Positions 17,385-28,681 of a DNA stretch of 64,000 nt are shown here, piece after piece (the first letter of the stretch is position 1; each line of letters begins with the position of its first letter). The DNA is from Bacteroidales bacterium (lineage in GTDB: Bacteria; Bacteroidota; Bacteroidia; Bacteroidales; UBA932): assembly GCA_017458265.1 (NCBI GenBank), contig JAFTFV010000025.1, forward strand, positions 1-64,000. The letters run 5' to 3'. Below the pieces are notes generated by a model. The model did not search any database, had not been told where the DNA came from, and saw only the letters and a list, made by a program, of their open reading frames with translations. A program made the translations under genes and the position numbers.

Positions 17385-18857
17385 TTATTGGAGCGACCAA
17401 GTGGCGCCTTCTTTGGTGTCTTTGACGGTGATGCCTGCTGCGGCAAGGCGGTCGCGGATGCGGTCGCTTTCGGCCCAGTTCTTTTCCTCGCGGGCTTTTT
17501 TGCGGCTCTCAAGGACGATTTCCATTGCGCCGTCAAGGGCTTTTTCCCACTTCTCGCTGCCGCCTTCCTCGCTGATGCTCAGGCCCAGGACAGTGCCGAG
17601 GATGTCATCGAAGAGCTGCTTCATGGCAGCTTTGTCTTCTGCCGACAGCGTTCCTGAGTTGATGAGCTTCACGGCATCGAAGAGGTGCGCGATTGCGATG
17701 GGGGTGTTGAGGTCGTCGCAGAGGGCGTCCTCGATTTTCTCGCGAAGGGCGTCCACTGCGGGAGATACGGCAGGTTTGTCATTTCGACTGAGCGAAGCGA
17801 ATGGAGAAATCTCTTTCCAGGCCTGCATAAGCCTCTGGAGGCCCTTTTCGGCAGCCTGGAGGGCTTCGTTGGAGAAGTCGAGGGTGCCGCGGTAGTGGGC
17901 CTGGAGGATGAAGAAACGCACGGTCATGGGAGCGTATGCCTGGGTGAGCTTGTCATGCTTTCCGGTGAACAGCTGCTCAAGGGTGATGAAGTTCCCGAGG
18001 GACTTACCCATCTTCTGGCCGTTGATGGTAATCATGTTGTTGTGCACCCAGTAGTGGACGCCCTGTGTGCCGCGGGAGGCCACGTTCTGGGCTATTTCGC
18101 ATTCGTGGTGGGGGAACATGAGATCCATTCCGCCGCCGTGGATGTCGAACTCCTCGCCAAGGTATTTCTCACCCATCACGGAGCACTCGAGATGCCAGCC
18201 GGGGAAGCCGTCTCCCCAGGGAGAGGGCCAGCGCATGATGTGCTGAGGCTCTGCCTTCTTCCAGATTGCGAAGTCGTACGGGGCGCGCTTGTCGCTCTGG
18301 CCGTCAAGGCTGCGGGTTCCTTCCAGCGTCGCCTCCAGGGTGCGGCCGGAAAGGACTCCGTAGTTGTGGTCACGGTTATATTTCTGCACGTCAAAGTATA
18401 CGCTGCCGTTGGATTCGTATGCATATCCGGCGGCAAGGATCTTCTTGACGGTCTCTATCTGCTCAATGATATGGCCGCTGGCGCGGGGCTCGATGGACGG
18501 AGACTGGCAGCCCAGAAGGCGCATGGCCTCGTGATAGCGCTCAGTGTAGTACTGGACTACCTCCATTGGCTCCAGCTGCTCCAGGCGGGCTTTCTTTGCT
18601 ATCTTGTCCTCGCCTTCATCCGCGTCGTTTTCAAGATGGCCAACGTCTGTGATGTTGCGCACATAGCGCACCTTGTATCCCAGATACTTGAGAAGCCGGA
18701 AGAGCACGTCGTAGGTCACGCCCGGGCGGGCATGGCCAAGATGGGCGTCTCCGTAAACGGTGGGGCCGCAGACATACATTCCAACCCTTCCTTCATGGAT
18801 GGGCTTGAACAGCTCCTTGTTGCGGCTGAGGGTATTTGTAAGAAACAGTGGTTTCAT
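17385..18857 (-). CDS. cysS: Cysteinyl-tRNA synthetase
   Basis: 490 residues. Class I synthetase that charges tRNA-Cys. The first zinc ligand CGPTVYGDAHLGHARPG includes the HIGH-type motif HLGH; KMGKSLGN is the KMSKS motif; HHECEIAQ supplies zinc ligands. Odd feature: residues 349-361 read EISPFASLSRNDK and are encoded by a dispersed palindromic repeat (17775-17817) that also occurs in other genes here. It sits in a variable loop just before the anticodon-binding (DALR-like) region, where an insertion should be tolerated. Divergent from lysS, with about 70 bases between them. Confidence 0.96.
   Translation of the reverse strand: MKPLFLTNTLSRNKELFKPIHEGRVGMYVCGPTVYGDAHLGHARPGVTYDVLFRLLKYLGYKVRYVRNITDVGHLENDADEGEDKIAKKARLEQLEPMEVVQYYTERYHEAMRLLGCQSPSIEPRASGHIIEQIETVKKILAAGYAYESNGSVYFDVQKYNRDHNYGVLSGRTLEATLEGTRSLDGQSDKRAPYDFAIWKKAEPQHIMRWPSPWGDGFPGWHLECSVMGEKYLGEEFDIHGGGMDLMFPHHECEIAQNVASRGTQGVHYWVHNNMITINGQKMGKSLGNFITLEQLFTGKHDKLTQAYAPMTVRFFILQAHYRGTLDFSNEALQAAEKGLQRLMQAWKEISPFASLSRNDKPAVSPAVDALREKIEDALCDDLNTPIAIAHLFDAVKLINSGTLSAEDKAAMKQLFDDILGTVLGLSISEEGGSEKWEKALDGAMEIVLESRKKAREEKNWAESDRIRDRLAAAGITVKDTKEGATWSLQ
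17775..17817 (-). repeat. Dispersed palindromic-repeat arm inside cysS
   Basis: On the minus strand the bases read AAAGAGATTTCTCC, then TTCGCTTCGCT, then CAGTCGAAATGACAAA. This is the AGAGATTTCTCC..GTCGAAATGACA arm also found at 20609-20651 and 26781-26819. It is kept in frame in cysS and encodes EISPFASLSRNDK. Confidence 0.8.
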
Positions 18858-18900
18858 GCTTATTAGGCTATATATTCACACAAAAGTAGTCTTTTTTTTG

Positions 18901-18908
18901 TATCTTTG
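18901..18908 (+). promoter_or_regulatory. Bacteroidetes -7 box upstream of lysS
   Basis: TATCTTTG (TAnnTTTG consensus) lies 19 bases before the lysS ATG, right after a T-run, in the short divergent gap with cysS. Confidence 0.6.
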
Positions 18909-18927
18909 CAATTCTAACAGATCAGAT

Positions 18928-27522: not shown

Positions 27523-28643
27523 AGGGAAGGGGCCTCATACTGATTGTCGTTACTGCCTTGATCATGGGCGGCTGCCGGATTGAGCCTCCGCTGTTTCTGA
27601 GGCATGCGGTGGCTACCGAGCTGCAGCTTGAGACGAAGGTGGACGTGCAGGTGATGTGGCAGGTGAACTGGGAGGCGGCATGGAAGTTCGGCTGGGACGT
27701 TTCCATGTACGGACCGCTCGGATATCGGCTTCCGGCCAGCATGAGGGCACATGTCTACAGCCACGATGCCTCCGGCGATGCGCGCTCCCACAGCGTCTAC
27801 AACTTCGTCGGAGACTACACCACCTTCGACGTCTTTGTGGGCGAGCATGACTTCCTCTTCCACAACAACGACTCCGAGGCCGTCCAGTTCCGCTCCGACG
27901 GCGACCTTGCCGACATCCACGCCTTCACGCGCGACATTTCCTCCGGCCTGAGGTCATCCTCCCCGGTGTATACCATGGCCCAGAAGGCCCGCGGGGCCGA
28001 TACCAAGGCCAATGACGAAGAGCTGAATGAGCCCGTCTCCCTTCAGCCGGACGGCCTGTTCTCAGTGTTCGTGAGAGACTACTACATCTCCGACAACCTT
28101 GAAGACTACGTTTACGAAAGGGGCCGGTACGTGCTCAAGATGGAGCATGAGCTCACCCCTGTAACATATATTTACCTGTTCCAGGTGACGCTGCTGCACA
28201 ATGAGGGCAGGGTTATCGGCAGCAGCGGCGGTGCGGCCCTTACCGGCATGGCGGGCGGCGCAGACCTCATGGACCGCATGGCCTGGACATCAACCGTTTC
28301 CGTGCCGATGGACGTCTACATGGACAAGGTCCAGGACATGCTGGGCGCGAAGGTGTTCAGCTTCGGCATCCCCGGCTGCAACGCCTACGACCCCGGAAGT
28401 GTTGCCGCGGCCCCTGCCGGGAAGCACTATTTTGTGCTCAACGTCACCTATGTGAACGGAACATACAAGAACATCAGGATTGATGTGACCGACGAGGTTC
28501 GCGCCCTCCCGCTTGGCGGAGTCATCCCCCTGGAGCTGGACGTGAACGACTTCCCGCCTGAAGGCGGCACCGGAGGCGGCGGCTTCAGCGCCCTTGTGGG
28601 TGACTGGAACGAAGAAACCGGAAGTACAACGATTATAAACTGA
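27519..28643 (+). CDS. DUF5119-like fimbrial lipoprotein
   Basis: 374 residues; lipoprotein signal MKGRGLILIVVTALIMGGC (Cys 19). The N-terminal core (LQLETKVDVQVMWQVNWEAAW, YNFVGDYTTFDVFVGEHDFLFHNNDSEAVQF) and the hydrophobic YIYLFQVTLLHNEGRVIG strand match the DUF5119 family found in Bacteroidales pilus gene clusters, where such proteins serve as accessory or anchoring subunits. C-terminal Gly-rich tail. It overlaps the preceding gene by four bases. Whether it is a pilus anchor (Mfa2/FimB role) or an assembly factor is not visible in sequence. Confidence 0.8.
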   Translation: MKGRGLILIVVTALIMGGCRIEPPLFLRHAVATELQLETKVDVQVMWQVNWEAAWKFGWDVSMYGPLGYRLPASMRAHVYSHDASGDARSHSVYNFVGDYTTFDVFVGEHDFLFHNNDSEAVQFRSDGDLADIHAFTRDISSGLRSSSPVYTMAQKARGADTKANDEELNEPVSLQPDGLFSVFVRDYYISDNLEDYVYERGRYVLKMEHELTPVTYIYLFQVTLLHNEGRVIGSSGGAALTGMAGGADLMDRMAWTSTVSVPMDVYMDKVQDMLGAKVFSFGIPGCNAYDPGSVAAAPAGKHYFVLNVTYVNGTYKNIRIDVTDEVRALPLGGVIPLELDVNDFPPEGGTGGGGFSALVGDWNEETGSTTIIN

Positions 28644-28650
28644 TCCCCCC

Positions 28651-28681
28651 CCTGTCATTCCGAGCGAAATCGAGGAATCTC
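28651..28681 (+). repeat. Intergenic copy of the TGTCATTCCGAGCG repeat arm
   Basis: CCTGTCATTCCGAGCG followed by AAATCGAGGAATCTC; it is the right arm of the repeat that has entered cysS, the methyltransferase and the OmpA-like gene. This copy lies between the stop of the DUF5119-like gene and the fimbrillin start. Confidence 0.8.

Follow-up and report, generated by a model that had tools for sequence, protein, structure and literature searches.

A short CGTC-like repeat lying in frame within many predicted genes of a rumen Bacteroidales bacterium

Rickettsia and Wolbachia are the best-known hosts of palindromes that lie within protein-coding sequence. A 64,000-nucleotide stretch of DNA from an uncultured rumen Bacteroidales bacterium (hereafter the window; positions 1 to 64,000 of contig JAFTFV010000025.1, assembly GCA_017458265.1, handled here as contig C52) was described in an earlier note as carrying a dispersed palindromic repeat that had entered cysS, a TrmH-like methyltransferase gene and an OmpA-like gene in frame, with a further copy between genes. 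How can one repeat occupy several unrelated protein genes and leave them readable? We analyzed the repeat in the window, in the 2.13-Mb metagenome assembly of 67 contigs to which the window belongs, and in related genomes. The repeat resembles the CGTC-tagged repetitive extragenic palindromes (REPs), has more than 100 core copies in the genome and lies in frame in about 35 predicted genes. It is very probably selfish DNA that is tolerated through its predicted translation into flexible loop peptides sparing the function of the host protein.

The repeat in the window

All four places named in the earlier note carry repeat units, with borders that could be refined, and the peptides predicted for the coding copies are those given there. 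The genes and units are as follows.

17388..18857, minus strand: cysS, cysteinyl-tRNA synthetase (CysRS; PF01406, PF09190 and PF23493, and orthologues), hosting one insert (residues 349-361); its stop codon is at 17385-17387
17777..17812, plus strand: repeat unit, long form, antisense to cysS, in the hypervariable linker between the catalytic and DALR domains; the peptide in the gene is EISPFASLSRNDK
20442..21302, plus strand: TrmH/SpoU-type RNA methyltransferase gene (TrmH-like; PF22435 and PF00588), hosting a three-unit array
20611..20648, minus strand: repeat unit, long form, antisense to the TrmH-like gene
20649..20675, minus strand: tandem half-unit (head plus spacer) in the TrmH-like gene, 27 nt from its neighbor; the matching 9 residues are absent in the near-identical protein P0002
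20687..20714, plus strand: repeat unit, short TTCC/GGAA form, sense in the TrmH-like gene; peptide VIPSAVEES
26155..27522, plus strand: OmpA-like gene (the name used in the earlier note) with a DUF3575 C-terminal part (PF12099, barely above the cut-off); several units in a linker that is variable in relatives
26783..26818, minus strand: repeat unit, long form, antisense to the OmpA-like gene; peptide EISPLASLGRND
26850..26904, plus strand: two degenerate heads, sense in the OmpA-like gene, TGTCATTCCA at 26850 and TGTCATTCCGGGC at 26892
26913..26940, plus strand: repeat unit, short form, sense in the OmpA-like gene; peptide VIPSEVQES
28653..28680, plus strand: intergenic repeat unit between a DUF5119 gene and a fimbrillin-like gene

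Within the window, GTCGAAATGACA with at most one mismatch has 4 matches against 0.36 expected, and TGTCATTCCGAGCG with at most two mismatches has 7 against 0.59; neither number was attained in any of 100 shuffles.

Units in genes and between genes

Across the genome, the core TGTCATTYCGA has 107 matches (41 + 66), compared with 1 for the reversed control. We read 102 of these units, grouped in 61 clusters, and assigned genes by Pfam scans of the open reading frames (ORFs) that span them. The reading frame is kept by 66 units (38 clusters) within 35 called genes, and Pfam matches exist for 34 of these genes. A further 35 units (22 clusters) lie outside called genes. A match in a ROK gene (L051), a lone 11-mer without a tail, was set aside as chance. 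The repeat is not confined to the genes first named, since the genome search placed units in many others. The hosts include CysRS, MetRS, the TrmH-like enzyme, TruA, MnmA, a CCA-adding-type enzyme, UvrA (two sites), DnaX, MurB, DapF, a Mur-ligase-type protein, prephenate dehydrogenase, several glycoside hydrolases, an MFS transporter and a MatE transporter. Two of the host genes carry the unit near the C terminus (L031, L068). None of the 22 non-coding clusters looked like a gene that a frameshifting unit had disrupted, in a scan made for such cases.

We also searched 101 genomes for the full-unit pattern, which occurs in 42 of them: 31 of the 61 from the genus, this genome among them, with 1 to 123 matches each, and 11 of the 40 from the rest of the order.

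These data bear on the idea that the repeats are kept for a role in the nucleic acid, such as ending transcripts, stabilizing mRNA or affecting DNA supercoiling, with the gene copies as side effects. Roles of this kind have been proposed for REPs elsewhere, in the sections of PMC3733652 drawn on here, and eight intergenic units sit between a stop codon and the next gene (judged by eye, without a script check of frame). However, units are more numerous in genes than outside them, the main forms of the unit fold weakly, and 30 of the 61 genomes of the genus lack a full unit by the pattern used. We regard this explanation as improbable.

At two intergenic sites (L063:4063 and L067:3090), the unit almost exactly fills the gap from stop codon to ATG, and its tail abuts or overlaps the likely start codon.

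Reading frame and length

The main unit is free of stops in each of its three sense frames, and 23 of the 26 sense clusters are read in the frame that yields VISSEVEKS (p = 9e-9 against one third). With an automated gene call, the share of this frame is 17/18 here and 7/8 in the related genome G057. Differences in length at the same site between species were examined in 26 comparisons, four of which were of equal length; the differences are multiples of three at 14 of 15 gene sites and at 1 of 7 sites outside genes (p = 6e-4). The sole exception among the gene sites is MurB, where the difference is 45 nt in a longer alignment. The spacing of neighbors within arrays follows the same pattern, being a multiple of three in 21/21 cases in genes and 4/12 outside them among the 102 units read; the automated counts, genes versus outside, are 17/17 versus 8/16 here, 6/6 versus 2/13 in G057 and 6/6 versus 1/2 in the relative G005. 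We take the within-array spacing as supporting evidence and not as proof of translation.

The strong preference for one sense frame is also what might be expected if the inserts were useful, supplying variety in loops on which selection acts at the protein level, and the repeated colonization of the same loops fits that idea as well. On the other hand, the host loops also vary freely without inserts, the enzymes hit are unrelated, and no single function is tied to the inserts. We consider selection for loop diversity an unlikely explanation.

Orthologues without the inserts

Judged from the alignments, the inserts are derived relative to the orthologues: aligned orthologues lack the residues, against the ancestral origin that the earlier note would have read from residues shared by all distant orthologues. 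At UvrA site 2, the compared segment spans 46 residues here, 40 in 28 of 29 relatives and 43 in one; the UvrA of G028 (L282), with a 43-residue segment, holds a repeat remnant, LRMTE, at the same site. The MurB linker has 40 residues here against a commonest length of 26 (16 of 30 rows), and the MurB of G005 carries units at the same spot. TruA shows a net gain of a few residues above the common length, and another REP occupies the same loop in G003. The GH88 site in G057, where the flanks are 94.3% identical, lacks the unit and falls 39 nt short of the length here; the bases adjoining the insert differ too.

The CysRS comparison comprises the window and the best 80 of 575 loci. Among these 80, the closest to the window CysRS (85%) come from rumen and reticulum Bacteroidales assemblies, and Candidatus Cryptobacteroides is among the more distant (73%). 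The linker is hypervariable. GTCAT or ATGAC occurs in 19 of 81 rows, some of them plain chance, and a two-arm unit was recognized by eye in 11 of 81 (the window, L074, L077, L082, L084, L092, L095, L097, L099, L123 and L126). These two-arm units represent at least 6 different sequences in differing frames. The OmpA-like protein has a match in 12 of 61 genomes; G006 has a unit in the same linker, and no unit was found in the linkers of the other aligned matches. Synteny with CysRS gave a TrmH-like match at 1 of the best 80 of 575 loci, and the TrmH-like orthologues were therefore taken by genome search.

The hypervariability of the CysRS, TrmH-like and OmpA-like linkers in aligned relatives would also fit an old, inherited low-complexity linker whose copies look alike with no insertion having taken place. 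Against this stands the occurrence of the same DNA in both orientations and several frames, in unrelated genes and in gaps, as well as the finding that near-identical proteins differ by whole units. Inheritance of this kind is very improbable.

The differences between near-identical proteins were seen in the TrmH-like family, compared at the level of public protein sequences and not of DNA. The window protein and the public protein P0002 are 99.2% identical and differ by one 9-residue step. P0006 and P0009 are identical over 240 residues outside the loop, and one has only the antisense unit, the other only the sense unit. P0003 and P0017 are 97.5% identical; one carries this repeat, the other an insert resembling a second palindromic family described below.

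In a structure model of the TrmH-like protein (mean predicted local distance difference test score, pLDDT, 74.8), residues 64-82 form a low-confidence loop between two strands. In the CysRS model, the insert lies at the end of one helix and ahead of another, at a place where a gap falls in E. coli CysRS (1li5).

Architecture of the unit

Full units are about 29-41 nt long and are often arranged in arrays. The forms comprise TGTCATTTCGAGCGAAGTCGAGAAATCTC, a sister form with TTCC/GGAA, and longer forms of ~37-41 nt. In 34 of the 102 units there is no 3' arm within 48 nt; these are tandem half-units standing before full units, plus the odd lone head. A half-unit consists of the head and a spacer, mostly pyrimidine-rich. 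By eye, the spacer equals the upstream flank in arrays L044 and L038, as a tandem duplication of flank plus head predicts; in array L036, also by eye, the spacer is unlike the upstream flank, contrary to that pattern.

Units with the ends GTCAT...ATCTC form three extra Watson-Crick pairs in 53 of 69 cases here and in 32 of 92 in relatives, where ~1 in 64 is expected; the AT/AT base of the stem and GTC belonged to the search anchor, and six control anchors gave 0 or 1 per set. The arms vary with compensation (ATTTC/GAAAT, ATTCC/GGAAT, ATTGC/GCAAT, ATACC/GGTAT, ATGCC/GGCAT). The outer 5-bp stem covaries, and the center is weakly paired in the main forms of this genome. Strong folding, with an 8-9 bp stem and a 5-nt loop, was seen for two units from relatives. 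Hairpin stability as a unifying feature was rejected for the main forms, none of which beat shuffled sequences.

The base preceding GTCAT is T in 51 and C in 2 of 53 units here, and T in 16, C in 13 and A in 3 of 32 in relatives. The tail is CTC in 47 of the 68 units that have a 3' arm and CCA in 1 of 68. With the terminal YGTC taken as a tag, neighboring units here comprise 7 pairs with tags inside, 0 with tags outside and 34 in tandem; the corresponding numbers are 2, 0 and 19 in G057 and 3, 1 and 8 in G005.

Entry and spread of the repeat

We infer both the mobility and the translation of the repeat, and with them its selfish character, from the patterns described above. Copies would enter genes as well as gaps; those causing frameshifts or creating stops would be lost, and those in permissive surface loops would survive. 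The survivors may later change in length through tandem duplication of flank plus head, becoming longer or shorter by 21, 24 or 27 nt at a time in genes. The entry step is the least certain. The net gain differs from site to site, with 18 nt at one of the UvrA sites and 39 nt in GH88, and none of the compared sites showed a clean insertion of fixed length, so copying with local replacement would fit better than cut-and-paste.

We found no dedicated transposase in a search aimed at the Y1_Tnp family alone. This genome has one Y1_Tnp gene, and Y1_Tnp matches occur in 76 of the 101 genomes. The idea of a repeat-flanked transposase was rejected, the examined Y1_Tnp genes having no flanking units; three further loose pattern matches near such genes (L069, L270, L277) were judged to be chance. 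As the route of entry we favor mobilization in trans by an IS200/IS605-type enzyme unlinked to the repeat, a possibility in which we place somewhat less than even confidence, over template switching during replication, which we consider doubtful.

Several observations weigh against the reading of the repeat as a mobile element that survives by being translatable. Shuffled sequences fold as well as the four main unit forms (z 0.25 to 0.77). Among the Y1_Tnp matches listed, 21 genes were examined, with a unit within 600 nt in 3 and on both sides in 0, and no Y1_Tnp match occurs in G052, a 98% complete genome with 29 units. In G005 the preference for one frame is less marked (6/9 by automated gene call). 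The site comparison between species is confined to those parts of G057 and G005 that were retrieved because they hold units themselves, with one gene counted twice, and the test of array spacing is partly circular, because a frame-breaking array would not be called coding. Because the genomes are metagenome assemblies, assembly errors could affect a few loops. P0009 is a single sequence, although P0005 and P0008 share its loop, and the CysRS model is poor overall (mean pLDDT 57.9).

The dispersed pattern seen here contrasts with G086, a genome from a different family within the order, in which related units form one long cluster on a single strand (C30:38435-40851; 29 pattern matches, some overlapping).

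A second palindromic family in the same loops

Sister species harbor a second family, whose copies are longer palindromes built around an invariant core (GTCGCTYCGCGACCC...). The two arms of each copy pair with each other, and their sequence changes from copy to copy. In 47 of 48 distinct copies, the arms are perfectly complementary over at least 10 nt (10-28 nt). The family occurs in 11 of 61 genomes (loci L377-L426, among them L394, L396, L410, L413, L414, L415 and L422) and was not found in this genome by the pattern used. None of 10 loci scanned reached the gathering score of any Rfam family, three MIR949 matches falling far below it. By an automated check, 13 of 43 copies lie in frame in genes.

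Of 46 copies fetched regardless of gene, eight lie in orthologues of genes that host the first repeat here: A2M, CysRS, DnaX (twice), a GT2, MetRS, prephenate dehydrogenase and YfhO, the last at another site. This enrichment in shared genes has p = 3e-6, assuming an estimated 1,800 genes and without correction for gene size. In CysRS, MetRS and prephenate dehydrogenase, the second family occupies the same loop as the first repeat (by eye). Further cases were met in the gene comparisons, in the UvrA of G019 (L280) and the DapF of G005 (L376).

Because the second family was found in the same genes and loops as the first repeat, we tentatively propose that a few permissive loops of core enzymes serve in this genus as shared landing pads for unrelated palindromic elements, which would replace each other within species. 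In this tentative reading, the REP-like element would also have been shaped to give a harmless peptide, VISSEVEKS, from one sense frame, as translational camouflage. Loops opened by one element may become preferred targets for the next.

Relation to known palindromic elements

CGTC-tagged REPs, in the sections of PMC3733652 (Di Nocera et al. 2013) drawn on here, are reported from five phyla including Bacteroidetes, with copies in genes of several species and no dedicated transposase. The genes that bear them include tRNA synthetases, pseudouridine synthases and UvrA, and the Rickettsia palindromic elements (RPEs) RPE-4 and RPE-6 are counted among their members. The main text mentions Bacteroidetes once and gives no species. 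Compared with these descriptions, the repeat shares the terminal YGTC tag, the AT/AT base of the stem, varied and compensated stems, copies in genes and the lack of a dedicated transposase; some relatives also have units with an 8-9 bp stem and a 5-nt loop. It differs in that their stems are 8-9 bp and their loops 4-5 nt, whereas the main forms here have a 5-bp outer stem and a weak center, and in that their tail is mostly CCA and ours mostly CTC. Opposite pairs here have tags inside (7/7), corresponding to their TT type, which is rare among CGTC elements, mostly arranged with tags outside. Head-to-tail neighbors, negligible in theirs, are common here (34).

RPEs (Ogata 2000, 2002) are reported in the parts of PMC10969869 and PMC2229807 drawn on here to lie in frame in many unrelated genes, to yield a recurring peptide and to be tolerated; a guanylate kinase with an RPE insert is active. 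The earlier note saw the same logic in the present repeat. This comparison is supported: the repeat is dispersed and in frame, has covarying arms, occupies many unrelated genes and has insert-free orthologues, although palindrome is a generous word for the main forms of this genome. Compared by description, both are in-frame inserts in protein genes that are absent from orthologues. Classical RPEs, as described there, are ~105-150 bp long, whereas the units here are ~29-41 nt, often in arrays, and the host is a rumen Bacteroidales and not an intracellular bacterium. With the REP-associated tyrosine transposase (RAYT)/REPIN systems, the repeat shares short dispersed copies, sometimes paired, and a Y1_Tnp gene in the genome; unlike them, it has no GTAG tag, and 0 of the 21 Y1_Tnp genes examined among the matches listed is flanked on both sides. 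In the portions of PMC12306157 used here, REPs are defined as extragenic, and the terms intragenic and in-frame are absent. The repeat is best called a CGTC-like REP, a divergent relative that fails several CGTC features and works like an RPE.

The earlier note knew of no such repeat in Bacteroidales. CGTC-tagged REPs had already been reported in Bacteroidetes, as the consulted parts of PMC3733652 state; the scale in Bacteroidales is new. No report of in-frame palindromic repeats in Bacteroidales was found in the literature searched, which took in few subscription papers. Also new here are the turnover between near-identical proteins, the frame bias and the colonization of the same loops by a second, unrelated palindromic family in sister species. 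Protein-coding palindromes are common in the uncultured gut lineage studied here; they occur in core enzymes, and near-identical proteins differ in them. This brings two old questions within reach of a test: by what means a selfish repeat spreads through genes and spares its host, and what share of the loop variation of bacterial enzymes stems from mobile DNA. For annotation, insert peptides such as VISSEVEKS or EISPLASLGRNDK should be read as a signal of the repeat and not of a protein family.

Other features of the window

A 153-nt direct repeat (92%) at 42541-42693 and 45749-45901 includes the 3' end of an ssb-like gene and brackets two ORFs (42714-45022), presumably one DUF262/HNH-like and one methyltransferase-like. 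With the repeat at the end of what we take to be the ssb-like gene, the bracketed segment looks like an island integrated at a gene end. Inverted repeats of 33 nt, 97% complementary and 189 nt apart (45437-45469 and 45659-45691), could be an invertible segment or another palindromic element.

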